Translations under genes and position numbers: made by a program
Notes under the pieces: model-generated
Told to the model about the DNA's origin: nothing
The model's database searches: none
The model's input: only the letters and a program-made list of their open reading frames with translations
Origin: Lantana camara
Lineage: Eukaryota; Streptophyta; Magnoliopsida; Lamiales; Verbenaceae
Length of the DNA: 64,000 nt
NCBI GenBank assembly: GCA_037501455.1
Contig: CM074858.1
Location: 101,652,001 to 101,716,000 of the forward strand
Direction of reading: 5' to 3'
Part shown: positions 2,400 to 57,806 of the stretch, one piece after another
Numbering within the stretch: the first letter of the stretch is position 1
How the letters are laid out: each line of letters starts with the position of its first letter

Positions 2400-5345
2400 T
2401 TGAAGAAGGAGAATGCGTCTTGAAGGTTGGGAATGGATCAAGCGTTCAAGCTCAAGCCATTAAGACGTGTAGATTAGATTTAGGTGTCTTTACTTTAGTT
2501 TTAAACAAAGTCCTTTATGTACCTTCTTTTATTCGTAATATAATTTCCATTCCAATACTTGATTGTGAAGGTCTTGAAACTTTTTCCAAAAATGGAAACT
2601 TTTATCTTAAGAAGAATAAAACTTTCGTTTTGCTTGGTACATTATCTAATGGACTTTATACAACTAAAGACACTAATATTTTGATATACAACAATTAAAC
2701 AAGCACAAAAGAGATGACAAGATCTCGGCTTCTTTATGGCGCGCACGTTTAGGGCATATTTCTAAAGATAGGATTGCTAAGTTAACTAATTTAGGATCAT
2801 TCTATGATGATGAACTTAAAGAGTTAACTCATTGTGAATCATGTCTTAAATGAAAGATGGCCAAAACTCCCTTTAATGGTAAAGTGGAACGTGCCACTAA
2901 AGTAGTGGATTTAATCCATACTGATGTTTGTGGACCATTTAGTCTAAGTACGAGAAACAATCATCAGTATTTCATAACCTTCATAGATGACTTTAGTCAT
3001 TTTGGTTATATGTACTTAATGAAGTATAAATCCGAAGCCTTTGAGAAATTCTTGGAATTTCAAAAGGAGGTTGAGAACCAAACCGGTCACAAGATAAAGA
3101 CACTTTGATCTGATCGAGGCGGCGAGTATCTAAGTGATGAATTCCTTAATCATCTTAGAGATAATGGAATTATCTCTCAGTGGACTCCTCCGGAACTCCT
3201 CAATTAAATGGAGTTTCAGAGAGAAGGATCAGAACCCTACTTGATATAGTTCGTTCCATGATGAGCTTCACTGAATTGCCACCTTCATTCTGGCGTTATG
3301 CCTTAGAATCAGCAGTTAAGATTCTGAGTCTTGTTCCGTCCAAATCTGTACCCAAAACCCCATTTGAATTGTGGATTAGGAAAATTCCTAATTATTCTTA
3401 CTTAAGAATTTGGAGTTGTCCTACTTACGTGAAGAGGACAATGGGAGATAAGCTTGAAGCTAGATCAAGTTTGTGCAACTTCATAGGATATCCTAAAGAT
3501 TCAACAGGATATTATTTCTACAATCCTCTTGAACAAAAGGTCTTTGTGTCAAAAAATGCTACTTTTCTTGAGGACTCGTCCCTTAAAGAAAAGAAAGGCA
3601 AGACCGCAGAACTTGAAGAGGTTCGAGACCAAGGTCCCATGCTAAGTTTGGAGACTAACGTCCCTCAGCCAATCGCAGAAAGTGATACACTCGTAAATCC
3701 TCCTCTAGTAAGACGTTCCGAACACATTCCTAGACAACCAGAGAGATGGTATGGTTTTCTCCACCAAACATCTCAAATAGATAACGATTCATTAACTTAT
3801 GAGGAGGCATTGTTAGATTCGAACTATGAATAGTGGAAAGAAGCAATGAAATCAGAAATGGATTTCATGTACTCTAATCAAGTTTGGACCTTAGTGGATC
3901 CACTTGATGGGATTAGGCCTATAGGGTGCAAATAGATATATAAGTGTAAGATTGGAGTAGATGGAAGCGTGGCAGCCTTTGAAACAAGATTAGTTGCTAA
4001 GGGTTTTACTCAAAGACCAGGTGTTGACTTTGATGAAACCTTCTCACCTGTTGCAATGCAAAAATCCATTCGGATCTTGCTTGCTATTGCAGCATATTAT
4101 GACTATGAGATATGGAAAATGGACGTGAAAACTACCTTTCTTAATGGAGACATTGACAAAGACATTTACATGGAGCAACCCATGGGTTTCACATTCAATG
4201 GGAGCGAACAAAAAGTTTGTAAGCTCCAATGTTCAATCTATGGATTGAAACAAGCTTCTAGGAATTGGAACATTCGATTTGATGAAGCGATCAAATCGTT
4301 TAGCTTTATTCAAAATTCGAATGAGTCTTGCATGTACAAGAAAGAATTGGAAACCTCAGTTCAATTTCTAATAGTTTATCTAGATGACATCCTCCTCATT
4401 GGGAATGCGAAGGATGACATGAAAGTAACAAAGTCTTGGTTATCGAACCAATTTGAGATGAAGGATCTTGGTGATGCATCCTACATTCTCGGCATAAAAA
4501 TCTATCGGGAGAGATCTAAGAGATTGTTAGGATTATCACAGTCGGTTTACATAAACAAAGTATTGAAGAGGTTTAGTATGGAAGATTTCAAGCGAGGGAA
4601 ACTTCCAATGGGCCCGGGAACAGTTCTTTCGAAGAAGCTGTGTCCCAAGACTGAACTTGAAAAGTCCAGGATGTCCAAAATTCGTTATGCATCAGCAATA
4701 GGAAACATAATATATGCAATGCTATGCACTCGACCGGATGTGGCATATGCAGTTAGCGTGACTAGCCGATTCCAATCTGACCCTGGTGAAGGTCACTAGA
4801 CTGCTGTAAAGAACATCCTTAAGTACAACTAAAGATTTGTTCTTGGTTTACGGAGGCCAGCAAGATCTTGTCATTAGAGGATACTCTGATGCAAGCTTTG
4901 CATCAAACATGGATGACTTTAAATCCATGTCAGGATATATATTCTGCCTGAATGGCGGAGCAGTGAGTTGAAAAAGTTCCAAGCAAGCGAGCACTGCAGA
5001 TTCGACCACTAAGGCCAAATACTTAGCCGCAAACAATGCTGCTAAGGAAGGTGTTGGGGTAAGAAACTTCATCCACGAGCTAGGCGTAGTTCCTAGCATT
5101 AACGACCCGTTACGGTGTTTTATAACAACATAGGGGTGGTTCAAGCAAGAGAATCAAGATCTCACCAGAGGACCAAGCACATTTTGAGGAAGTATCACTT
5201 AATCCTTGATATAATCAAGAGAGGAGATGCGCAAATTGAAAGGGTCACATCGACAGAGAACATGTCAGATCCACTTACAAAAGCCCTTAGTTAACAAGCT
5301 TTCGAAAGACATCTTCTTAAGATGGGACTTAGATTAGCACTTGAA
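2400..5345 (+). pseudogene. Copia-1 pol (gag-pre-integrase, integrase, RT, RNase H), decayed
   Basis: Order of domains: gag-pre-integrase segment (2420-2850, ending with the CESCLK zinc-binding part), integrase core (2857-3260; aspartate in LIHTDVCGP, aspartate in SDRGGEY, glutamate in LNGVSERR), integrase C-terminal and linker (3260-3830), reverse transcriptase (about 3850-4790, catalytic box YLDD in VYLDDILLIGN), and RNase H (4800-5345, active-site region visible only in pieces). Defects: stops near 2697, 2851, 3106 (SDRGGEY preceded by TGA), 3831, 3932 and 4797, frameshifts near 2700 and 3190, and a small deletion near 4830. The product would normally copy and integrate the element. This copy cannot make it. 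Confidence 0.9.
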
Positions 5346-6530: not shown

Positions 6531-6730
6531 GGCCCCACCACGTGTCACGCAATGTACGTGATTGCCACGTGTGCATGACACGTGGATGTGGGCCCCACCA
6601 CGTGTCACGTAATGTACGTGACTACCACGTGTGCATGACAAGTGGATGTGGGCCCCACCACGTGTCACGCAATGTACGTAACTGCCACGTGTCATGCACA
6701 TATGGCCCCACGTGTCATGCACACGTGTTG
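6531..6730 (+). promoter_or_regulatory. G-box (CACGTG) array, 60-bp tandem repeat in copia-1 LTR
   Basis: Nine CACGTG hexamers begin at 6539, 6566, 6579, 6599, 6626, 6659, 6686, 6709 and 6722. The first part is a 60-bp tandem repeat (GGGCCCCACCACGTGTCAC recurs at 6531, 6591 and 6651). CACGTG is the canonical G-box bound by plant bHLH and bZIP factors. The array lies about 370 bp upstream of the TATA box, as expected of a U3 enhancer. The copia-2 LTRs have a similar but shorter cluster at the matching place. Confidence 0.85.
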
Positions 6731-11440: not shown

Positions 11441-13065
11441 CTGTGGGGCGCGGCTAAAAGAGGTGGCTAAGTAGAACTACCCACGTGGGACAACCTCGGA
11501 GCCCAGTAGGGGAGAACATTCATAGAGCTTCCACTATCAACAAGGACCCTCTTTATAATGTGATTGTGCACATCTAGACTAACAACCAGATTTTGTCGAC
11601 CCCATGGGGCGTTACAATGTGGCCAAGGTCATTCTCACTAAATCCTATAGCCTCCTCCTCCTACCTCGAGTGCGGCATCTCTTCTTTCCCGATGGCGTAA
11701 ATTGTCTTTGCGAGGGAGGGCTTCTGGTCGTAGCTCCGCACATAGTGACGCCGCGAAGCATTGGAATCTCCATCGGCAGCACCTCCTGCAATCATGTTGA
11801 TTACAGCAAAAGGGGTGTTCTCCATTTCGGGAGTCGTTTTCTGCTTACCTCGGTCACTCCCTTCAGTCGACACGCTTCTCGGGCTCCTCAAGTGAGATGG
11901 GCTTCTCCTTCTGCTATCGGCTCGATAGCTGCAATGCTCATTATAACGCTAGAGGATTTTCAAAAATTCCTTCAGATGGTCCTCTGCTATGAGCCTTTGT
12001 ATCTCATTCTCCAATTGCCTATATTCGTTTGTGCCATGACCCTTTTATTTGTGAAAGGTGCAGTACTTCCCTGAGGGCCTCTGGGCTTCGGTCTCTCTCA
12101 TCTTGGGCAGCCTCTTGAAAAATTTCCTATCCGCCATGGAATAGACTTCGGAGATAGGTCTGTTGAGGGGGATCCGGTCGTATTTTCGAGCGGACGGAGG
12201 GCTCCGTCGGCGACCTTTGGCATTATCGTTTTTTTCCCTCCAGGATCTTGTCCTATGCAGAGATATTGGGTACCCTCGGGGGGATGCATTTATGTTCTCA
12301 AGCATGAAGAAGGGCTCCGCAATCTGCCTTATCTCCACTGACGAGCGCGACTTCTGTTTCACCACAACATCTGTAAATTCTTTACTCACATAGTCCTTAC
12401 GGTTGATAGAACCAAAGAGTACGTGGGCTAGGAAGTTTATCGAGGACCTCTCCACCAGCAAAACCTCTTTGGTAAACCTTCCAAAAAAAGATCGGACGGA
12501 CTCGTTGTGCCCTTGCACGAGGTTGTACAATGTCGTAGCCGTGGGGGCCGGTGTTTTCAAAGAATTGAAGTGGTTCAGAAAAGCATTGGCAAGATCATCG
12601 TAGCCCCTGATGGATCGAGGGGGCAGCTTCTTGTACCAGTCCTTGGCCATGCCCACGAGTGAGGTAACCAATACTTTCGCCCAATAATGGCTGGAATGCT
12701 CGTACAAATGCATTAAATGCAGGAAATGATCTAAGTGCTCGGATTGATCAGTGGTTCCATTGTAGCGGTTTATCGACGTGGGGATTTTCCCTACTCCTGC
12801 TTGGGCCATAAGAACTTCATCTTCGAGGGGAGAGCCTCTCGCCACAGGGTGATAGCACCCAAAATTCTCCTCGATAGGATCGTAATCTCCTTGATCCCTT
12901 TCACGCCTTGGGACATGGCTATGATTCTGGTGATGGGGAGCATCTCTGGGATAGGGCCTCTCCCCTCCCGTTCGGGGGTCTTGAGACCGTGCTTGAGAGA
13001 GCTACTCCACCATATTTTGAATCCCTTCCAATTGATTCTGCATGGCTGCTAAGAAGTGGGGATTC

Positions 13066-22739: not shown

Positions 22740-25700
22740 GTCAAAGCCATTCTAAAGCTACTCTAAGTCCCATCTTCTGAAGATGACCTTGGAAAGCTTT
22801 TCGACTAAGGGGTTTAGTAAGTGGATCTGCCATGTTCTCTGCTGATGTGACCCTCTCAATTTGCACTTCTCCTCTTTTGATAATATCACGGATTAGGTGA
22901 TACTTCCTCATAATGTGTTTGGTTCATTGGTGAGATCTTGGTTCTCTCGCTTGAGCAACCGCCCCAGTGTTGTCACAAAACACAGTAATGGGGTCTTTCA
23001 TGCTAGGAACAACATTCAACTCTTGAATGAAGTTTCTAATCCAAACACCTTCCTTAGCTGCATCATTTGCAGCTAAGTATTCGGCCTCAGTGGTCGAATC
23101 TGCAGTGGTCGTTTACTTGGAACTCTCCCAACTCACTGCTCCGCCGTTTAGGTAGAAAATGTATCCTGACATTGACTTAAAATCATCTAAGTCAGATGCA
23201 AAGCTTGCATCGCAGTATCCTTCGATAGTAAGATCTTTCTGACCTCCGTAAACTAAGAATAAATCTTTAGTACTTTTCAAGTACTTAAGAATATTCTTCA
23301 CGGCAGCCCAGTGACCATCTCCAGGGTCAGATTGGAAACGACTTGTTACACTAAGTGCATAAGCCACATCCGGTCGAGTACATAACATTGCATACATTAT
23401 GCTACCTATTGCTGATGCATAAGGTGTATGAGTCATTCTTTCCTTCTCAAGGTTAGTCTTAGGGCACATCTTCTTAGAAAGACATGTCCTTACACTCATG
23501 GGAAGGTTCTTAACCGTTGCTGACTCCATATTGAATCTGTTCAATACTTTGTCAATGTACATCGACTGTGATAGTCCTATCAAACTTCTAGATCTATCTC
23601 GACAGATTTTAATTCCAATGATATAGGACGCATCACCAAGATCTTTCATCTCGAATTGGTTCGATAACCATAACTTAGTTACTTTCATGTCATCCTTCGA
23701 ATTCCCAATAAGAAGGATGTAATCAACATAAAGTACTAAGAATTGCACTGAGGTCTCCGATTCCTTTCTATACACACATGATTCATTCGAAATTTGAATG
23801 AAGCCAAACGCTTTGTCTGATTCATCAAATCGAATGTTCCAATTCCTAGAAGCCTGTTTCAATCCATAGATTGATCTTTGGAGTTTGCAAACCTTTTGCT
23901 CACTCCCACTAAATGTGAAACCTATGGGTTACTCCATATAAATGTCTTTATCAATGTCACCATTGAGAAAGGCAGTCTTCACATCCATTTTCCATATCTC
24001 ATAGTCATAATATGCAGCAATGGCAAACATGATCCGAATAGACTTTTGCATTGCAACTGGTGAAAAGGTTTCATCAAAGTCCACGCCGGGTCTTTGAGTG
24101 AATCCTTTTGCAACCAGTCTTGCTTTGTAGGAAGCAATGCTTCCATCAACTCCAAGCTTTCTCTTAAAGATCCATTTGCAACCTATGGGTTTGACCCCAT
24201 CAGGCAAATCTACCAAGGTCAAAACTTGGTTGGAATTCATGGAATCCATTTCGGATTTCATGGCTTCTATCCACTGTTCAGAGTCTGAATCTGAAAGTGC
24301 CTCCTCATATGTTAAAGGATCATTATCCTTTTGAGAGATCTCATGGAAGAATCCATACCATCTCCCCGGCTGTCTAGGAGTGCGTTCAGAACGCCTTAGA
24401 GGAGGATTTACGTGTGTATCGAAATTCGTAATTGGTTGTGGTTGATCAGAAGGGGACGTTTCTTCAGTGGGTGGCATGGGGTCACTATGTACTTCCTCTA
24501 ATTCTATGATCTTGCCTTTCTTTTCTTTAAGGAACGGTTCCTCAAGAAAAGTGGCATTTCTGGAAACAAACACCTTTTGCTCAGATTGATCATAGAAGTA
24601 GTATCCTATGGATTCCTTAGGATAATCTACAAAGTAGCATAAGTTAGAACGAGATTCTAACTTATCTCCCACTGTCCTCTTCACGTAAGCAGGACAACCC
24701 CAAATTCTTAAGTAAGAATAACTAGGGATTTTACCATGCCACATTTCATAGGGCGTTTCAGGGACTGACTTAGAGGGAAGTAGATTCAAAATCTTTGCTG
24801 CACTTTCTAGGGCATTACCCCAGAAAGAAGGTGGTAAGTCAGTGAAACTCATCATAGAACGAACCATATCAAGTAGAGTTCGGTTCCTTCTCTCAGAAAC
24901 TCCATTAAGCTGAGTAGTGTCCAGAGGAGTCCACTGAGAGATAATCTCATTATCGTTGAGATGATTAAGGAATTCTTCACTAAGATACTCGCCTCCTCGA
25001 TCAGATCGAAGTGCTTTGATCTTGTGACCAGTTTGGTTCTCAACCTCCTTTTGAAATTCTAGGAATTTCTCAAAAGCTTTAGATTTATACTTCATTAAGT
25101 ATACATAACCATACCGACTAAAGTCATCGGTAAAGGTTATGAAGTACTGATGATTGTTTCTAGTGCTTACACTAAGTGGTCCAACAACATCAGAATGGAT
25201 CAAATCCAAGACCCTAGTGGCATGTTCCACAGTTCCTTTAAAAGGAACTTTGGACATCTTTCCTTTGAGACAGGACTCGCAAGAAGTTAACTCTTTGAGA
25301 TCATTTTCAGATAATGATCCTAAAGTGTTTATCTTGCTAATTCTGTTCTTGGAAATATGTCCTAATCTAGCGTGCCATAAGGGAGATGAAACTTTGTCAT
25401 CTCTCTTACGCTTAGTTTCTCGTTGTATATTTATAATATTGATATTCTGAGTTAGATAAAGTCCATTACTTAGAGTACCGATGTGAACGGAAGAATTGTT
25501 TCGTTTGATAAAGTACTTACCATTCTTAATATAAGTTTCATAACCTTCACAATCTAAAATTGGAAATGAAATTATATTACGAATAATGCTCGGTACATAA
25601 AGGACTTTATTTAAAACTAACTCAAAACTACCTAAATCTAATCTAATTGTGCCTAAAGCTCGAGCTTTCACATTTGAGCCATCGCGGATCTTTAAGACAC

Positions 25701-26661
25701 ATTCTCCTTCTCTGAGTTGTTGAACTTCACTTAGCATCAGTACATCATTACAGATATGAGCTCCACAACCAGTATCAAGTACCTAAGAACTAGAATGAAT
25801 AGAAAGATTTACTTCAACGAGAAACACACCTTTCTTTAGAGTAGCCTTGTACTCTGGCCAGTTTCTCCTCCAATGTCCCACTTTGCCACAATGGAAGCAA
25901 ACATCCTCTTTCTGATCATGCTTCTTCTTTTGGGCCTTCCCTTTCAAAATGCCACCAGTGAGCCTAAGGGGTTTCTTCTTCTTGATTTGGGCTTTCTTGC
26001 CCTTACCTTTAGAAGGCCCAGAAGAGGAAGATGGAGCATTCATCATCAGAACCTTATTATCCTTCTTGATCGTGCTTTCAGCAGTCACAAGCTGACTAAT
26101 TAGCTCAACTACAGTAGCACCAGCATGATTCATATTGAAGTTAAGGACAAATGGGTTGAATGATGGTGGGAGCGAGGCTAGCAACAAGTTCACTAAAAGC
26201 TCATCTTTCAGTGGCATGTCCATGGAAGCAAGTTTCTCAGTAAGGGCGAGAAACTTGAATCCATATTCATGGACACTTGAACCTTCCCTCATTCTCAAGT
26301 GGAACAATTCCTTTGAAGTGTTATACCTTGTAACACGTTCATGAGGGCGGTAAAGTTGCTCTAAGTGGTCGTAAATCTCCCAAGCAAATTCCATGGCCCC
26401 ATGTTGCCTTTGCAAGTCCGGAGACATGTTAGCCAACATAAAGCAACGGGCTTGGAGATTATCATCCTTCCATTTCTGGATCGCGTCCCGCTCGGCCCGA
26501 GTGGGAGCTTCCCCTTCGGGACTAGGCTCCCCTTCGAAGAGAACATAAGTTCACTTTTCAGAATCTAAAATGATTTTTAGATTCCTCAGCCAATCAGAAT
26601 AGTTGGGACCAGTCAACTTGTTTGACTCGAGGATCGATACAAGAGGGTTTTTGGTTGCCAT
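22740..26661 (-). pseudogene. Copia-2 gag-pol polyprotein with in-frame stops
   Basis: The start is the ATG at 26661 (MATKNPLVSILESNKLTGPNYSDWLRN), a common copia gag start. Order: gag with UBN2-like region (26440-25990), CCHC knuckle (CFHCGKVGHWRRNW, 25900-25850), protease (DTGCGAHIC just after 25780), gag-pre-integrase (ending CESCLKGKMSKVPF), integrase (LIHSDVVGP, SDRGGEY, LNGVSERR), RT (24200-23500) and RNase H (23340-22740). Stops interrupt the one frame: TGA near 26553, TAG near 25782, TAA near 23927 (EQP context), TAA near 23111 and TGA near 22923. The RT box reads YVDY instead of YVDD. Several stops fit C-to-T change of CAA, CGA or TGG codons. Confidence 0.92.
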
Positions 26662-47783: not shown

Positions 47784-48598
47784 AAAGATATCCTCGAAAT
47801 AGATTTGCAAAAGTTCGAATCAAAACTTTCGCCAACATACTTCATGTGTGCGTCACCGAAGTTGTATGTTGAATGTGTTTCACATACATGGAATATAAAC
47901 TTAAGGCAAATCAAAAAACTTCAGATTGGAAGTGAAAAATAAATGAGAGTAGTATTGATTTATTTTTCATAGATATCTGTACATAGAGTAAAATGCAAAA
48001 TTATTCTAGATCGAGAAATTCGTGAATAATTTAATTAATTTTAGAGTTCAACAATATTTATTTAATAAAATTAAATATTATTAGACGGTATTAAATTATT
48101 GGCATGAGATGATAATAGATTGACCCGTTTGGAGCTAAAATTAATTAGTACTCTTGCACATCCCGCCGCAAACCCCAACAAAGACCAAAGAGAAAATATT
48201 AAAAGGAGAGAGAGAAATGAATTTTCAAAGAGTTTGAAAATAGTCAAAGAATTTATTTTAAGAAAATAAATTAAATTCCAAAAAGTTGGAAATGCCCGAA
48301 ATTTTATTTTGGAGAAAATAAAATTTTTTGAAAAAAAAAAAAGAGATAGTTTTTTTACTGACGTGACAGCTAATGTGTCACGCCATGTCAACGGGTCAGG
48401 TGCCAAGTGGCACTGACCAGGTGTCGTAAGGCGCGCCACGTGTACGGCTAGGATCACGCCAAGTTGCGCAGATCAACGGCCGAGATTGGATCTGGGCAGA
48501 CCTGGTCAAGGGGCAGGGTCGGATAGGGTCAGGTCAATTGTTGATTGACCTGAACACGTGGCCTAATCAGGTTTCGACACATCAACGACCAGCAAGAT

Positions 48599-50101
48599 GT
48601 TGTAACTGATTTTACTACAGTTAAAAACCAATCGTGCAATGTACACTAACATTCGCGTAGCACAATAGGATCGAACCCACATGGAAGGAAAATCAATCAC
48701 TACTTTCTATTTCTCTCTAATCTAAAGACTTAACGAATTCAAAGGTTGTTTCTATTAATCTACTGATGCAGAAATTAACAAGTAATTAAACTAAAATTGC
48801 AATTAACAACTTAAATACGCAAATTAACTTCAGTAAACTAAACAAGCAGGGGAAAAAACTTTGAATCATACAATCAAGAGCTAATGTTATACTCGTTTGA
48901 CAAGCGTAATTCTACAACCTAGTCACTTATATTTGAATTACCCTCTCTCGAGGTGTAACCAAGTGCTTAATTAGTGTTCTATGTTGCTCTCGCAATCACC
49001 AATAATTAATTAAACCATAGGAACAAGACTAGTGTAATTCAGTATTCTAGCGGCTCGGCATGGAATAAGATTACTGTTGTATAAGCTAGGACCAAATCTC
49101 TTTGAACCCTACAACTCACAAGTATTGAAAACCCTCTAAACTACCATCACTCTTTTGATCTATAGGCAATTGTGACACATGCTACGGGTGATCAGGCCAT
49201 CGCAAGTCAGTTTAAACCAGTTTTCAAACTAAGAATTAACATAAGTCATTCAAGCATCTCATCAAACATCCGTCATGCAATCATCATCACTTCCCCCTAG
49301 CCCTAGATAATTAGCTACTCATAATTGAAGCAAAAATCAGAAAACTAAAGGAAATTGCATTAACATAAATCATCGTCAACGAATCTAAACAAAGTCTAAC
49401 AATTAAACTCGTAAACATTCAGCAAAACTCAAGAACGAAACTAGCATAAAAAACTAAAACTAAAATCAAAGGAATTAGTTTGGAAATTAAAGCAACAATA
49501 AAACCAAAGATTGTTCTCGGAATACAATCCTGTCATCTTCTCGAATTCTCTGAAAATCTTCTGAACTTCTGAGTCTTCTTCCAAACCCTAGGTCTTGATT
49601 TGGAAGTGAAACTCTTTTTCTCTGTCTAACTCTCTCCTCCTGTATGTCCTTCTCTGGCGTCCCCCCTCTCTCTAAAGACTCCAAAAACACACATATATAG
49701 CAGCCCTAGGAGATTTCTCGCCGCCCTAGGTAACGGGCATTACCTATATTTGCCTTGCCATCGTTAACGCCCGTTAATGGCCTGAAATCTCCTTAACGCT
49801 TTTACTGGTAATGCGCGTTACCTATTTCCTTCTGCGTAGGGTTAACGGGCGTTACCCCTCTGTTCTCGCCAAAACCTTTCTCCTGTGGCTAGTAACGGGA
49901 GTTACTCCTTTAGTACTGCTAAATGGTAACGGGAGTTACCACTTTTTCTCCCAAAAATGCGTGAAATCGCTCTGCTTCGCCGTTTCGTAACTCCAATTCT
50001 AATGACAACTGAACAGAGTCAAATAAATACATAAACGCATCAAACGGCACCAGAATATCATCTATTTAATGCTTAAAATCATTCAATTTCTACACACAAA
50101 A
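48599..50101 (-). repeat. 3' LTR of the Athila-like element
   Basis: Matches 55520-57024 nearly base for base. On the minus strand it holds six palindromes (49729-49940) followed 30 bp downstream by a TATA-like CTATATATGTG (49691-49700). Confidence 0.9.
49729..49940 (-). promoter_or_regulatory. Palindrome cluster in the Athila-like 3' LTR
   Basis: Six 16-mers at 49729-49744, ~49764, 49807-49822, ~49841, ~49891 and 49925-49940, variants of GGTAACGGGCGTTACC (GGTAACGGGAGTTACC, GGTAATGCGCGTTACC and others). They lie directly upstream of the LTR TATA-like box on the minus strand. Each contains TAACG inverted, matching the core of MYB-type sites; binding is inferred. Confidence 0.85.
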
Positions 50102-51646
50102 AAACTCCCACACTTGAATATTGCTCGTCCCCGAGTAATACAAAAATTAAGTAAACACATCCTCATCAAACCTTCTCCTCTAAGCAATCATCAACCTTTG
50201 CCTAAACAAGTCTAGCCAATCAAATCAAATACTCGTAAACAGGAAATCCTCAAAATTTAGTATGAAAAGTAAACCCTTGTGTAGTGTGTGAGTCAAACGA
50301 TACAATGTACAAAAATTAGAATGACAACTTCACAATTTCCTCCTAAGTTCTTTCATCGACTTCGGAACACACTCTTCGCACCTATCTGCACTAATGGAAT
50401 TAAATCAAAGCTTCGGATCGGTAGGTCTTTCGGGCTTGTAATGTAGGCTTAGGGTAAGGTTATGGAAATTTGGATCATGTGACTACTCACCAAGCTTACT
50501 TCATTTACTCTAATCAAAACATGGACACTTCTATTCACCATTAACACGAAGAATTTCGCCCCACTCTTCAATTGAATCCCACACTTTCAAATTCACCCTT
50601 TGCATAATCTTATTTTGTTTTTCTTCTTTGCTCTTTCTCTTTTCATATCTTTTCTTTTCACTCTTTTTTTTTTCTCTTTTGTATTTTGTCTTTCTTTTCG
50701 CGCAATACCTCCTCATTCTCCATCAATCGTAAGAACAAATAAAAAGGATCTAAGAATAGATACTGGTGAACTAAACTATCAAGGTAGGTATTTCTATGTT
50801 GTGCCTTGGCTTATAATGTGGCTACAAAAATCTTTGCACAACAATTAGGCTCAGCAGGGTCAATAGGTTTGCGTTATTTAGTGAAAAACGGCTAAATAGA
50901 AAAAGCTAAAAATCCTCTGACAACAAATGCCTACTTCACTTCCTTAGTCTTTCATTAATTCAAAATTTCGCCTCGGTAGGACTAAAGTGCATCCTAATCA
51001 AATCTTAGACTCATTCGGAGATTATCAACTCATCTCTCTAAGTTAAGTACATCATTTCGTTTAACAGTGCTCAAAATATAAGGGCTTACTAACAAACTAA
51101 ATCATCAAATCTCATGCAACTTTCCTCAATTCAAAAAGCCTAACTTATTCTAGCAAAAGCTCAACGATCAAACTTCAAAGAAAAAGTTCAAAATGAGGGA
51201 AAATTTTCAAAAATTTTCAAAATTACTCGAATTTTAGCAATTTACAAGTGAAATTACATCTACTCATGCAAATATTCAATAAAGCTCATAGCAAGTATGC
51301 ACATTCTTCCCCCACACTTAAACTTTGCAATGCCATCATGCAATTGAAAGAATTAAAGGGTTAGAAAACTTCCTGATTACTGACGAACCGCAATGTGCCT
51401 GCTGTGCTTCCAAACCTGAACAAGTGACTAAAAATACGGATCAAGTACACAGGCAATTGATAATCAACATGCATCCAACAAGTATAATAATAGTCACAAA
51501 TTCACGAAAATAAAAGCACATTTGCATAAACCAAGTCAGAAAACCGAACATAGCAAAAATTCAAGTGTAGACAAATATCCAAACATAGTAAAGCATAAAC
51601 GAAACAAATGTCTAGAACTCTGGGGAAAAATATCAAGATAACAAAA
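50102..51646 (-). other. 3' non-coding part of the Athila-like element
   Basis: Runs from the end of the env-like frame to the 3' LTR. Minus-strand AAGTGTGGGAGTTTTT (50102-50117) is the polypurine tract. A second, better purine tract, AAGTGTGGGGGAA, lies at 51308-51320 next to the end of the env-like frame. No gene is visible, and the open frames at 50531-50848 are low-complexity (Lys/Glu or Phe/Leu runs). Confidence 0.6.
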
Positions 51647-52846
51647 TCAGGGCGATGGGGGTCCTCCAAAATACTGATCCAAGCGAGCACTGAGCCCGTC
51701 AAACTTGGCCTCCCACGAGTCGAATCGCTCATCTACATAATGTGCTAAATCTTCCACTCTAGCAATAATGGTGGTCAAGTCAGCCCTCAATCCTGCTAGC
51801 TCTACACGTACGCCTCTCAAAGTCACGGGAGTGTCGTCACTAGCCTCGGCAACAACAGGGACGGCATTACGAAGAACCACAAACTCATCATCAGGTCGGT
51901 CAGGAATCTGAGCCAAGAGCTCCCTCTGCCTCGCAGAAAGCTCATCGAACCGGGCTATCCCCCAGCTGTACATCTGCCAGAAACGATCTCTCTCACGGAT
52001 AGGCCACCATGGCAAAACCCTTTGCTTCAGCTCTCCACTCTCCCAAGGTATAGCTAAGCCTACGGTCTCTAAGTACTCTGGACCTGTAAGTCCAAAATTG
52101 ATAGGCAAAGCCCCTCTTGGTGTCTAGTTCATCTCTCTAGCAAACATCGTTACAAAGCCTCCATGAGCAATCGTGCCCATCACACTCCCCGCACTCTCCT
52201 GCAGCTTCTAGAGGAACTCGATCGTACCATCGAACTTAATACCTTCCTTCATCATATACATGATGCCCAACTCAGTTTCTATAATATGGCTATCTCTCCC
52301 GTATCTGGTTCAGAATCCCAGGGCTAAAATCCTATGGACTAGTATCCATGTCAACGAGTCAAAATAGTTGTCATACGTGCTCCGGGGGGAATAACTAGGG
52401 ACACCCTCCATCAAGGAAAAGGATCTCCACACCTCCTCTCGCTGAGTCTCGCTCCATCTAGGTAGAGAAGTGATGGCATTAGCTGGAAACCGAAGGATCT
52501 CTCGAATTCTGCTCACACTCCAAGTCCGAGTTTCCATATCATCAAGAGTGAAGGTCAAAGTATTATCCACCAGATCAAAATTCATTGTATGGAAGAAAGC
52601 AGCGGTCATATCTCCATAAGTCATATCCCTCCTTTCAAGGAAAGGCAACCAACCTATGTTATCGAAAAGCCTCCGCACTTCCATCGGGTCGAAGAATTTA
52701 GTACCCACAATATTCCTTGTTGGATTCCTTTGGAAAGGGTTCCCAAAGACAATAACCGTTACGTTGTCCGAACCAAAAGGTTGGTGGTCTAGTCTGGATG
52801 ACGTAGTGAAAGGTTCCGGGACTTTAGAGCGCTTAGTGCGACCCAT
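51647..52846 (-). pseudogene. Athila ORF1 / env-like reading frame with three stops
   Basis: The frame runs without shift from the ATG at 52846 (MGRTKRSKVPEPFTTS) to 51647, about 400 codons. It is interrupted by TGA near 52308 and TAG near 52208 and 52126. The protein matches the ATHILA ORF-1 family in position and character (MEVRRLFDNIGW, DMTAAFFHTMNFD, TLDDMETRTWSVSRIREILRFP) and ends in a heptad-rich helical tail (RVELAGLRADLTTIIARVEDLAHYV). An upstream ATG at 52873 lies in what looks like an intron, so 52846 is preferred. The function of this family is unknown; it sits where other Athila elements have an env-like gene. Confidence 0.82.
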
Positions 52847-52851
52847 TGTAC

Positions 52852-53405
52852 CTGAATCAAACAATGATAGCAAAGCAAAGTACTAAGAAATCAATCACAA
52901 TTCACATGGACAATTCATCAAACACCTTGTGCGCCTAAGTCTAGTGGGTGAGTCCAAACTCATGTTATTCACTCTATTCAATCTCAAATTCACACTAGCT
53001 TAATTACTACAATTCAAGCTTATAATTCTCTGCCTTCAACTCTGAAATTCAAAAACAAGGCTACTTAGAACTTTAGGATTCTTCAAAAATTTAACCCAAT
53101 TCAAGTTAACTTCAATTTAAAGCATCAATCCTAATTCTAGCATAGTTAATCTCTCAAAATTCATCAATTTAATCTCATGGTGATCTCTAGCATGCAATTC
53201 AATCCTAATTCTCATCCCTTAGATTGGAAAAATTAGCTCCAAAAAATACTCTAAGACAAAGGAGTGGTAACTTACTTTGATTCACAAGAGAGTAAAGAAT
53301 GTAACTTAGTGGGGGAGCTTCTTGCTTGTTAATTGAAGATGATTGACCCAAGGGAACAATTGAATCTCTAGTAAGGTGGGATAAGTGGGTGCAAGTGTAT
53401 TTATA
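52852..53405 (-). promoter_or_regulatory. Internal TATA box, noncoding exon and intron before the env-like frame
   Basis: On the minus strand: TATAAATA (53405-53398), then about 95-120 bp of leader, a strong splice donor AAA|GTAAGT at 53275-53270, and an acceptor TTTGATTCAG at 52852 just five bases before the ATG (GTACAATGG). The implied intron is 424 nt. This is the layout of a complete transcription unit. The palindrome cluster at 53499-53775 lies about 95 bp upstream of the TATA box. Confidence 0.65.
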
Positions 53406-53498
53406 GGGTTGGGGGAAAGAAAACCGAAATTGGGTAGGACAAGACTTAAATTAACCCTAAAACCGTGTGCCTAAAATCCAATTTCCGCCAGTGCGACC

Positions 53499-53775
53499 GG
53501 TAACGGGCGTTACCGGTTTTCCTAAGAAAAAGGGGTAACGGGCGTTACCCCTGTCGGCCAAGATGCCTGTGTCCATTAACGGGCGTTACCAAAAAATAAC
53601 AGCAATGGTGTAACGCCTGTTACCTTTAGTAACTGGTGCGTCTGATCTCATTAACGGACGTTACCAAAAAATAACAGCAATGGTGTAACGCCCGTTACCT
53701 TTAGTAACTGGTGCGTCTGATCTCATTAACGGGCGTTACCAAAAAATAACAACAATGGTGTAACTCCCGTTACTC
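53499..53775 (-). promoter_or_regulatory. Internal palindrome cluster with 75-bp tandem repeat
   Basis: Eight palindromes of the same type as in the LTRs: two perfect GGTAACGGGCGTTACC (53499-53514, 53534-53549), then pairs carried in three tandem 75-bp units (landmark AAAAAATAACA at 53591, 53666 and 53741). Each unit holds ATTAACGGGCGTTACC and TGTAACGCCCGTTACC variants. The cluster lies between the gag-protease remnant and the env-like unit. Confidence 0.85.
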
Positions 53776-53799
53776 ATAACTCCGCCCAAAACTTATGTA

Positions 53800-54219
53800 A
53801 AACACAAACACACAACTAATAGTGCTCAATCACGTCAATTAACTGAAATTAACTCATAGTATTCAATCAAATCACAGTGTACCATTTTCAAATAAACACA
53901 TAAGCACCTAGAACAATTCATATCAACAATTCATTCTCCTCAAGAAATACAATCAAACCATGCACAAGCATACTAACAAATTAAATGGACCTCAATATTG
54001 ACGATGACGCTCAATTCACGGCCCTCACACCATCTAGCTCTTGGCTACCTAGTAAACCATCAAGTGACCTGCAATGAGAGAGACAACTCAATTATTCCGA
54101 GAAAACAAGGACAACAGAAACGAAAATAACGGAAACAAAAACAAAACAAGAGAAAAGGGAAAGGGAAAAGTTAGTTCTAAGTTATAGTCATTAGCTTGAC
54201 TGCAGAAAGCAATCTAGGA
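53800..54219 (-). other. Spacer between gag-protease remnant and the env-like unit
   Basis: AT-rich, no coding frame. RT, RNase H and integrase should lie in this interval in a full element; nothing of them is left. Confidence 0.6.
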
Positions 54220-55362
54220 TTAGCAATTCCCAAGCAACGAGTCACAAGGAGTGACCTCGTTCTTGTTACTCACAAACCCAGAGCTTGATCTCCAAGTATC
54301 TAAATCCAAAGCATCCTTCATTCTCGCTCTCTGAAACTTCGTTTCTCTCTGCCAATCATCTGCATCTCTTTGCTCCATATACAGAGTTTCTCCGTCTGGC
54401 GTATCATTGACAACCTTAATCATGCAACACTTATCTGGAATTGTGGATGGTGTCCTGGAACCAAAGTTCCTGAACTCCATTCTTTCATCTCCTATTTTGA
54501 ACGTGAGCCGTCCATTCTGAACATCAATATCTGCTCCAGTCGTAGCCAGAAACGGTCTTCCAAGTATCAATGGCATCCTCTCATCACTCTCAATATCAAG
54601 AACTACAAAATCAGTGGGAATATGAAAATTTCCAACTTTTACCAAAATATCTTCTAAAATTCCTGTCGGATATTTCACCGATCTATCTGCTAGTTGGAGT
54701 GTCATATTTGTCGTCGTGAGCTCTTTCACTCCTAGTTTCCTGCAAGTAGACAATGGAATTAAACTCACACTAGCTCCTAAATCACATAGAACAGTATGAA
54801 ATTGCAAAGAACCAATAGTAAGGGGAATTGAAAAACTCCCTGGATCTTTAAGCTTTGGAGGAAGCTTATGCTGAATAAAGTGGAAAGAACTTTGCTAGGA
54901 AAGCCTGAGATAATGCTGCCCAAGTCTGAAAAGATTCATTTGGGACAGTACTCAGCCATGCTTTAGCTCGATCCCTAAGTGAAAAGGGAAAAAGCGTGAC
55001 TCGGATAGCATCAGTAGTGACATTATGAATTTTGAAGGTATCACAAACTTCCAAAAAATACTCCAAATGTGAAGTTGGATCCTCCAAAGATAGTCCAGAA
55101 AACAAATTATTCTGCAACAAATTTATGATAGATGGTTTAATCTCAAAGTTGTTTGTTGCAATCGTGGACGAGTTGCAGTCTGAATTGCTCCAGCTTGTGG
55201 TACGTTATAATCTCTTATAGCCGGTGGTGGTGGTGGGTCTGCTTCAGCCATCGGTAAAGCAATTGGTTTCTTCTCCTTCTTATTTCTTCTCCTAATAGCA
55301 CTCAGTGTTCTCTCAATTTTCGGATCGTATGGAACTAAGTCAGTATCTTGAGATCTTCGCAT
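54220..55362 (-). pseudogene. Athila-like gag N-terminus joined to protease
   Basis: The gag starts MRRSQDTDLVPYDPKIERTL (55362) and, after a frameshift near 55170, continues INLLQNNLFSGLSLEDPTSHLEYF...SLRDRAKAWLSTVP, the retrotransposon gag domain, to FLAKFFP near 54890. It then jumps, with a change of frame, to KLPPKLKDPGSFSIPLTIG and a retropepsin (CDLGASVSLIPLS ... LILGRPFLATTGADID). The gag C-terminal part with its zinc knuckle is deleted. DLGA at the active site is usual for Athila-type proteases. The frame ends at 54220 (CDSLLGNC), before any RT. Confidence 0.85.
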
Positions 55363-55496
55363 GCACTATAAACCTACACAAGGAAAAAGAATTTCTCAGT
55401 CCAATTCCACAGTAACAAGGATAATAAACACAAAGTAAAGTAATAGTCTAAAGAACTAGATCAAAATAATTGAATAATATTGACTTAAAACGCCTT

Positions 55497-55513
55497 CCCC
55501 GGCAACGGCGCCA
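55497..55513 (-). other. Primer-binding site of the Athila-like element
   Basis: Minus-strand TGGCGCCGTTGCCGGGG, six bases inside the 5' LTR. This form, usually ascribed to tRNA-Asp, is common in plant gypsy elements of the Athila/Tat type. Confidence 0.88.
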
Positions 55514-55519
55514 AAAACT

Positions 55520-57024
55520 TGTTGTAACTGATTTTACTACAGTTAAAAACCAATCGTACAAGCGTACACTAACATACGCGTAGCATAATAGGATCGAACC
55601 CACAGGGAAGGGAAATCAATCACTACTCTCTATTTCTCTCTAATCTAAAGACTTAACGAATTCAAAGGTTGTTTCTATTAATCTACTGATGCAGAAATTA
55701 ACAAGTAACTAAACTAAAATTGCAATTAACAACTTAAATACGCTAATTAACTTCAGTAAACTAAACAGGCAGGGGAAAAAGCTTTGAATCATACAATCAA
55801 TAGCCAATGTGATACTCGTTTGACAAGCGTAATTCTACAACCTAGTCACTTATATTTGAATTACCCTCTCTCGAGGTGTAACCAAGTGCTTAATTAGTGT
55901 TCAATGTTGCTCTCGCAATCACCAATAGTTAATTAAACCATAGGAACAAGACTAGTGTAATTCAGTATTCTAGCGGCTCGGCATGGAATAAGATTACTGT
56001 TGTATATGCTTGGACCAAATCTCTTTGAACCCTACAACTCACAAGTATTGAAAACCCTCTAAACTACCATCACTCTTTCGATCTATTGGTAATTGTGACA
56101 CATGCTACGGGTGATCAGGCCATCGCAAGTCAGTTCTAACCAGTTTTCAAACTAAGAATTAACATAAGTCATTCAAGCATCTCATCAAACATTCGTCATG
56201 CAATCATCATCACTTCCCCCTAGACCTAGATAATTAGCTACTCATAATTGAAACAAAAATCATAAAACTAAAGGAAATTGCATTAACATAAATCATCGTC
56301 AACGAATCTAAACAAAGTCTAACTATTAAACTCGTAAACATTCAGCAAAACTCAAGAACGAAACTAGCATAAAAAACTAAAACTAAAATCAAAGGAATTA
56401 GTTTGGAAATTAAAGCAACAATAAAACCAAAGATTGTTCTCGAAATTCAATCCTGTCGTCTTCTTGAATTCTCTGAAAATCTTCTGAACATCTGAGTCTT
56501 CTTCCAAACCCTAGGTCTTGACTTGGACAGGAAACTCTTTTTCTCTGTCTAACTGTCTCCTTCTGTCTGTCCTTCTCTGGCGTCCCCCCTCTCTCCAAAG
56601 ACTCCAAAAACGCACATATATAGCAGCCCTAGGAGATTTCTCGCCGCCCTAGGTAACGGGTGTTACCTATATTTGCCTTGCCATCGTTAACGCCCGTTAA
56701 TGGCCTGAAATCGCCTTAACGTTTTTACTGGTAACGGGCGTTACCTATTTCCTTCTGCGTAGGGGTAACGGGCGTTACCCCTTTGTTCTCGCCAAAACCT
56801 TTCTCCTGTGGCTAGTAACGGGAGTTACTCCTTTAGTACTGTTAAATGGTAACGGGTGTTACCACTTTTTCTCCCAAAAATACGTGAAATCACTCTGCTT
56901 CGCCGTTTCGTAACTCCAACTCTAATGCCACTTGAACAGAGTCAAATAACCACATAAACGCATCAAACGGCACCAGAATATCGTCTATTTAACGCTTAAA
57001 ATCATGCAATTTCTACACACAACA
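55520..57024 (-). repeat. 5' LTR of the Athila-like element
   Basis: 1505 bp, TG...CA ends in minus orientation. It carries the palindrome cluster 56652-56863 and a TATA-like CTATATATGTG at 56613-56623. Confidence 0.9.
56652..56863 (-). promoter_or_regulatory. Palindrome cluster in the Athila-like 5' LTR
   Basis: Six 16-mers at 56652-56667, 56686-56701, 56730-56745, 56764-56779, 56814-56829 and 56848-56863. Two are perfect GGTAACGGGCGTTACC; others are GGTAACGGGTGTTACC and AGTAACGGGAGTTACT. The nearest lies 30 bp upstream of the TATA-like box. Order and spacing equal those of the 3' LTR, with a few C/T differences. Confidence 0.87.
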
Positions 57025-57806
57025 CCAGACTAGTTTAAACTAACCGGTTCACGGTTGAACTAGTCTGAGAGTCGAATCGCTGGTTGAACCGGACCGAACC
57101 GGACACGTGGAAAGTGCTCGTGTGTGCGTGAATAGTAAAAATACCAAACGCACAGGCGCAACTCAGGCGGCGTGTAAGGGCGCTTGCGGTATCCAATCCG
57201 TACATGGACGGTGGCGTGATGCTCACGGTTGCTTGGGCTGCATGAAGGTATGTTTTTGGCTGTAAATAGGGCCTTCCTATTTCATTTTAAAGCATCAGTT
57301 TTTGAAAATCTTTTTCGGTAGTTCCAAAGCCATTTAGCTGATTTCCTCTCTCTAATTAATTAATCTTTAATTAAGGATTAATTAATATTTAATTAGGTGG
57401 TTAAATAATTAATATATAATCCACTTAATTATTAGAAAATAGGGTTTTTCTGAAATTAGAAAAAAATGTTTTCTAAGAAATATTTTCTCGAGTATTTAGT
57501 GAAATACTGACGGATTTCACACTCCAAAATCTTAATTGGGGATATTGCGGGGAAGATCTGCCGGTTTCACGAGAAAATATCGGCATGGAAAAGTGTCGTT
57601 GATAGCCAATTTTGCAGTACTGTAATACCGTTATGCTGCTAAAATTATTATTTGCATATTGTGATCATATGCACTGTGATTTAAAATTATGTTATCGATG
57701 CACGTATATATTAGAGTTATTCTGCCCGATTTGTTCCGCTCCTTCTTAAAATTTTTTTGAAATATTGAGCTATACCATCACTCTATTTTGGGCCCACCAC
57801 CCAGCA

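Follow-up and report, generated by a model that had tools for sequence, protein, structure and literature searches.

The closest described counterparts of the locus analysed here are found among the Sireviruses, which belong to Ty1/copia. Multi-copy palindromes, called RM boxes, were described in 13 of these elements, clustered upstream of the TATA box of the LTR (Bousios 2010, PMC2829016). Copies are also present in the linker of all nine ENV-bearing RM Sireviruses (Table 3 of that paper), 77 of 79 lying before ENV, and the authors considered that these linker palindromes support an internal ENV promoter, which was not conclusively identified. Moreover, the Sirevirus RMs form predicted CpG islands (PMC2829016).

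In Ty3/gypsy, start sites, ORFs, an intron and an ENV ORF promoter, corresponding to the internal promoter region, were annotated for the Arabidopsis element Athila6A (Panda 2016, PMC4977677). In maize Grande, gene23 is an extra ORF with its own promoter, located between pol and the 3' LTR (Gomez-Orte 2013, cited in PMC7264820). According to the same review, env-like genes are otherwise transcribed from the 5' LTR. The 3' ORF of BAGY2 and other env-like plant elements is reached by splicing (Vicient 2001, cited in PMC7264820 and PMC2829016), and splice acceptors have been predicted for the env of BAGY2 and of Athila (cited in PMC2829016). Finally, the LTR and the internal promoter of foamy virus carry sites for one activator, which links genomic and subgenomic RNA (PMC3185757).

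The element examined here, which appears to be an Athila-like member of Ty3/gypsy, resembles the Sireviruses in that a palindrome cluster lies before its LTR TATA box. Further copies, eight in number, lie upstream of a 3' ORF that is env-like by position only, and would correspond to the linker copies if this ORF were an ENV. It differs from them in lineage and in the core of the palindrome, which is GTAACG-NN-CGTTAC in the LTR and internal arrays and not the CGG-CCG found in all but one of the Sirevirus elements. Furthermore, a TATA box and splice signals are visible here, whereas no conclusive internal promoter was reported there; as for the CpG islands, these were predicted in Sireviruses, while CpG counts alone were made here (PMC2829016).

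With Athila6A, the element would share an internal or ENV ORF promoter and an intron, both of which are predicted in our case, but the available part of the Athila6A paper mentions no motif shared by the LTR and the interior and gives no position for the intron (PMC4977677). Grande gene23 differs by its antisense orientation relative to gag-pol, again with no shared motif mentioned in the accessible text (PMC7264820), and for elements of the BAGY2 type the passages available mention no internal promoter (PMC7264820, PMC2829016). The likeness to foamy virus lies in the shared sites at LTR and internal promoter; there, however, Tas, the activator, is a viral product and accessory genes are the ones expressed from the internal promoter, and no kinship with the present element is implied (PMC3185757).

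A sequence-only reading of this locus had taken the paired-promoter layout to be previously unreported, a claim that does not hold in view of the Sirevirus (PMC2829016), Athila6A (PMC4977677) and Grande (PMC7264820) precedents. We found no motif common to the LTR and the internal promoter of an Athila-group Ty3/gypsy element in the open-licence literature. Each half of the layout had already been published, and what appears new is the presence of both halves on one Ty3/gypsy element.

Anatomy, lineage and decay of the element

Within the window, that is, the whole 64-kb stretch of DNA analysed, we delimited an LTR retroelement of ~8.4 kb on the minus strand, at about 48598-57024. Its main parts are as follows.

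55520-57024, minus strand: 5' LTR, ~1.5 kb, with TG...CA ends in the sense orientation, from alignment of the LTR pair and reading of the ends
55497-55515, minus strand: primer binding site TTTGGCGCCGTTGCCGGGG, directly after the 5' LTR, read from the sequence
54866-55365, minus strand: gag remnant recognised by eye, its N-terminal and middle parts lying in separate, interrupted frames
54220-54894, minus strand: retropepsin (PR) ORF
52310-52846, minus strand: 178-aa ORF with a basic N-terminus (MGRTKRSK), no family found
51647-52123, minus strand: 158-aa open stretch in the frame of the 178-aa ORF, with three in-frame stops between them, the first ORF's own included
48598-50101, minus strand: 3' LTR, its end approximate, the U3 end being ~1 base unlike that of the 5' LTR

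The two LTRs are 95.7% identical (1439 of 1503 aligned positions), and the element is flanked by a near-matching 5-bp target duplication, identical at 4 of 5 positions (CCAGA at 57025-57029 versus CAAGA at 48593-48597). The primer binding site at 55515-55497 is one that we take to be of the tRNA-Asp type, presumably a feature of the Athila lineage. The PR ORF matched PF13650 with an E value of 4.6e-07, above the cut-off, whereas PF13975 remained below it. It has 6259 protein homologues; among the best 120 listed, those named to organism are from flowering plants, and none is labelled by lineage. Overall, PR and, presumably, the primer site point to Ty3/gypsy.

No RT, RNase H or integrase was recognised by eye among the ORFs of at least 40 aa in the element, and just 447 bp separate the PR ORF from the internal palindrome array, a combination which makes it most likely that we are dealing with a non-autonomous deletion derivative, as compared with the 11.6-kb full-length consensus of Athila6A (PMC4977677). 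It is likely that the present copy no longer gives rise to a working protein. A tract at 54080-54170, located between the PR ORF and the array, is purine-rich on the plus strand and pyrimidine-rich in the sense of the element. The window contains other retroelements: two with copia-like polyprotein ORFs, recognised by eye, at 3165-4799 and 23113-26550, one per strand, and another represented by a 318-aa gag-like ORF at 12045-13001 on the minus strand, also by eye.

The 158-aa stretch is probably the eroded rest of the 178-aa ORF. The sequence-only reading had called this ORF env-like, which agrees with its place between PR and the 3' LTR, where an Athila env-like ORF is expected, but no sign of an envelope came from its content. 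In Pfam, the 178-aa piece had no match at E<=10 and the 158-aa piece matched HalX alone, a hit below the cut-off (E 0.05), with no Athila or envelope family for either. No homologue was found at E<=10 among 25 candidates, which were proteins up to 1.75x the query length, so that full-length relatives may be missed. Hydropathy revealed no membrane segment, the highest 19-residue values being 0.89 and 0.85 in the two pieces, and a single-sequence structure model had a mean pLDDT of 50, too poor for a structure search. The label env-like is thus by position only.

Relatives with the same layout were sought among viral contigs, where the primer-site and the paired-palindrome scans gave 0 matches each. 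Among genome contigs, the primer-site scan recovered 23 loci, all under bacterial titles, 7 of which were inspected. Three of these are probably plant retroelement contamination, judging by G+C and flanking sequence. The records concerned, titled Streptomyces clavifer (L005), Blastococcus endophyticus (L011) and Candidatus Burkholderia humilis (L018), have the 19-base primer site of plant type within sequence of lower G+C content (0.37, 0.37 and 0.44, respectively), and in L011 the 19-mer precedes a 907-residue ORF with a gag-like start, by eye. In L005, L011, L018 and a further locus (L019), no perfect palindrome arm was repeated at least three times, a weak negative as these are partial records of unclear kinship.

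Palindrome arrays and the signals downstream of them

The arrays and the TATA boxes that follow them, in the sense of the element, are located as listed below.

56653-56862, minus strand: U3 array of the 5' LTR, six palindromes, gaps 34/50/34/44/34
56613-56623, minus strand: LTR TATA-like box CTATATATG, 30 bp after the 5' LTR array (56653 to 56623)
53500-53773, minus strand: internal array of eight palindromes (gaps 34/41/34/41/34/41/35), in part a tandem repeat of 75 bp
53398-53405, minus strand: internal TATA box TATAAATA, 95 bp after the last internal palindrome
49730-49939, minus strand: U3 array of the 3' LTR, six palindromes, gaps 34/50/34/44/34
49691-49700, minus strand: TATA-like box of the 3' LTR, 30 bp after its array

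When GTAACGNNCGTTAC was searched with at most two mismatches, 22 sites were found in the window, comprising six in each LTR, the eight internal ones and two strays (799 and 6609). A chance origin of the palindromes can be ruled out, given that 20 lie in the three arrays and that each of 20 first-order Markov controls of 64 kb contained 0-2 palindromes of this type. In the 16-mer form, the palindrome has 16 matches in the window, one of them stray, against 0.06 expected. The stray look-alike at 798-813, outside the element, reads GGGAACGACCGTTCCC; the two strays, at this position and at 6609, do not exceed the number found in the controls.

The arrays are also enriched in CNGTTR, which we take to be a MYB-type core (7 in 230 nt and 12 in 290 nt of arrays, versus 16 in the remaining 7525 nt). 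This is a lead only, because the palindrome itself contains CNGTTR. Between the two LTRs, 6 of 84 palindrome positions differ, as do 58 of 1419 positions elsewhere; the palindromes of the present copy show no sign of sparing after insertion. Each arm of an unmutated core has one CpG. CpG amounts to 8-15 per 200 bp in the intervals covering the arrays (G+C of the internal array, 0.40-0.48), to zero in the 200-bp intervals starting at 53423, 53323 and 53223 and also at 54923, and to 11 in that at 52023, and the observed/expected ratio exceeds 1 in several AT-rich intervals elsewhere. In view of these intervals outside the arrays, the CpG counts were not taken as support.

The sequence-only reading had described six palindromes ending 30 bp upstream of an LTR TATA-like box and eight internal ones, the nearest 95 bp upstream of the box at 53405-53398, and we recovered both arrangements, the former in each LTR. 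The 9-mer CTATAAATA from 53406 is unique in the window, and plain TATAAATA, present 16 times in the window on both strands, occurs once in the element. Matches to [CT]TATA[AT]A[AT] number three on the sense strand of the element (at 56623, 53406 and 49700), an array preceding each of them, and none on its antisense strand, against 4.7 per strand at the rate of the window. It should be noted that a TATA octamer is expected by chance within 90 nt in ~5% of cases at the window's own rate, and the internal box alone is thus modest evidence.

Between the internal TATA box and the 3' ORF, the following features are predicted.

53276-53375, minus strand: noncoding exon 1, without ATG, its 5' end placed 30 nt beyond the first base of the TATA box
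52852-53275, minus strand: 424-nt intron GTAAGT...TTCAG, 37% T, 30% A and 11% C, with nine ATGs

The donor AAA|GTAAGT at 53275 (score 3.5) ranks 3 of the 535 GT sites in the element, and the acceptor TTTGATTCAG ending at 52852 ranks 2 of its 662 AG sites, on splice-site matrices that are untrained on the host species. The first ATG past the predicted junction is that of the ORF at 52846, in the context ACAATGG. As regards the first exon, 1022 of 5400 windows of its length plus 6 nt are free of ATG. The succession of TATA box, ATG-free exon, donor, acceptor and ATG was thus borne out.

The same signals bear on an alternative explanation, in which all message for the 3' ORF comes from RNA started in the LTR and spliced to the acceptor at 52852, the array inside the element being a leftover enhancer or repeat and its TATA box a product of chance. 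The LTR leader offers donors of comparable strength, at 55864 (AGG|GTAATT, score 3.3) and 56140 (score 3.0); splice acceptors are predicted for env in BAGY2 and Athila (cited in PMC2829016), the review places env-like transcription at the 5' LTR (PMC7264820), and the ~5% chance level of the internal box leaves room for coincidence. What this explanation does not account for is a second array with the same motif and the same spacing, nor a TATA box, an ATG-free exon and a strong donor placed between that array and the ORF, and it sits poorly with the annotation of an ENV ORF promoter in Athila6A (PMC4977677). We regard exclusive splicing from the LTR as unlikely. The LTR-spliced and the internally initiated routes may both exist. 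Thus, where two promoters with shared sites had been proposed instead of expression by LTR splicing alone, the anatomy fits (same core, 34-bp pairing, TATA box, ATG-free exon and strong splice sites in order), but splicing from the LTR RNA may also occur, given the similar score of the donor at 55864, which could use the same acceptor.

Likeness between the LTR and internal arrays

Both types of array are built of palindrome pairs, spaced by 34 bp in 3 of 3 pairs of the LTR and in 3 of 4 internal pairs, the fourth being spaced by 35. This pairing went beyond the sequence-only reading. The coordinates given there for arrays, boxes and splice sites all check out. The three internal 34s derive from one 75-bp tandem duplication and count as one event, not as independent ones. 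With the 16-mers masked, the LTR and internal blocks share zero 8-mers on the same strand and one on the opposite strand, in a test with limited power (mean of 1.0 on shuffling). The likeness of the two blocks lies mostly in the core and in the pair spacing.

BLAST, on the other hand, aligned the LTR pair at 56727-56782 with the internal pair at 53496-53552, the spacer being part of the alignment (80.7% over 57 positions, E 7e-06), and under permissive settings 53496-53624 with 56727-56863 at 68% over 140. The arrays may thus share a common descent. When the spacers were compared, 3 of 50 comparisons reached p <=0.01 (two at the floor of 0.003, with 300 shuffles each) versus 0.5 expected; all three involved one LTR spacer, against three different internal spacers, and the spacers of the pair aligned by BLAST gave p 0.06, so the spacer test was counted for neither side. 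We rejected the possibility that the element harbours a recent U3 copy or a solo LTR from its own family, as the likeness to the LTR is confined to 53469-53785, the array and its edge, and consists mostly of palindromes.

These comparisons define a further explanation, in which the internal array is a piece of U3, from the element's own LTR or that of a related element, that was duplicated or recombined into the interior, has no function and was enlarged by tandem duplication. The common motif and 34-bp pairing, the BLAST alignments, the arms AGGG...CCCT found in one LTR and one internal palindrome, and the 75-bp units, which are clear tandem copies, are all consistent with it. A recent copy, however, would align throughout and not in its palindromes mostly, and the zero count of same-strand 8-mers outside the 16-mers also speaks against copying. 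We consider a functionless U3 copy improbable. Shared core and spacing fit a common binding requirement and also an old, diverged copy of U3, the two being compatible: an old copy could have turned promoter, so that origin and function are separate questions.

Moreover, the dyad symmetry often continues into the sequences flanking the palindromes, with letters that vary: 24 of 40 flank pairs are symmetric versus 16.1 expected (permutation p 0.007), and contiguous extended arms amount to 19 versus 8.0 expected (p 0.0009), as determined over ten non-duplicate sites, two of them with identical flanks. At 53495-53515, 53532-53552 and 56761-56783 the arms reach about ten bases and their outer letters vary (CCGG...CCGG, GGGG...CCCC), as if the symmetry itself were kept. 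This extended symmetry and the CpG in each arm of the unmutated cores would also suit palindromes with a role in structure or silencing (as hairpins, targets of CpG methylation or siRNA sources) instead of activator sites, an explanation that we find very unlikely, since both in the LTR and inside the element the arrays precede a TATA box, as activator sites usually do, and only ten non-duplicate sites, two with the same flanks, enter the symmetry test.

Two proposed promoters under a shared factor

The reading that we favour, with a probability of about 0.57, is that the element, now decayed and non-autonomous, belongs to an Athila-like Ty3/gypsy family which carried LTR and internal promoters under one shared factor. 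The LTR promoter would give the genomic RNA, while the internal promoter at ~53405 would give a short message with a noncoding first exon, and removal of the 424-nt intron would bring the ATG of the 3' ORF close to the cap. Both promoters would lie downstream of arrays of one dyad-symmetric site, in pairs 34 bp apart. From these observed sites and their spacing, we infer that one dimeric or paired DNA-binding factor could bind at both promoters and switch them on together, which would coordinate the two transcripts. Such a factor would most likely be host-encoded and, by the core CNGTTR, presumably MYB-like.

In favour of two promoters are the 20 array sites, the 34-bp pairing, a TATA box after every array, the ranks of the splice sites and the Athila6A and Sirevirus precedents. 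It is the order of the signals that persuades, no single item being decisive. Several points weigh on the other side: the internal TATA box is 95 bp from its array versus 30 bp in the LTR; its chance level of ~5%, the share of ATG-free windows (1022 of 5400) and the donor at 55864 weaken the downstream signals; and the palindromes are not spared between the LTRs, the internal 34-bp spacings are not independent and the arrays resemble each other by BLAST. In addition, the layout is known from one copy, and the review assigns env-like transcription to the 5' LTR (PMC7264820).

By analogy, the product of the 3' ORF, given its basic N-terminus and the lack of a membrane segment in both pieces, might be a regulator and no envelope, a protein that binds DNA at the palindromes of its own promoter and of the LTR, either as a self-activating switch like Tas of foamy virus or as a sequence-specific anti-silencing factor of the same kind as VANC in VANDAL elements. 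Ty1/copia and Ty3/gypsy would in that case have acquired the dual-array layout separately. We hold this idea to be very doubtful.

The arrangement seen here bears on the expression of the third ORF of plant retroelements and on the reasons for its retention. A two-array layout in Ty3/gypsy, as in the Sireviruses, would suggest that unrelated plant retroelements have converged on linked control of the genomic RNA and the 3' ORF. Moreover, a single factor bound by the motif, should there be one, would offer a way into what wakes such elements.
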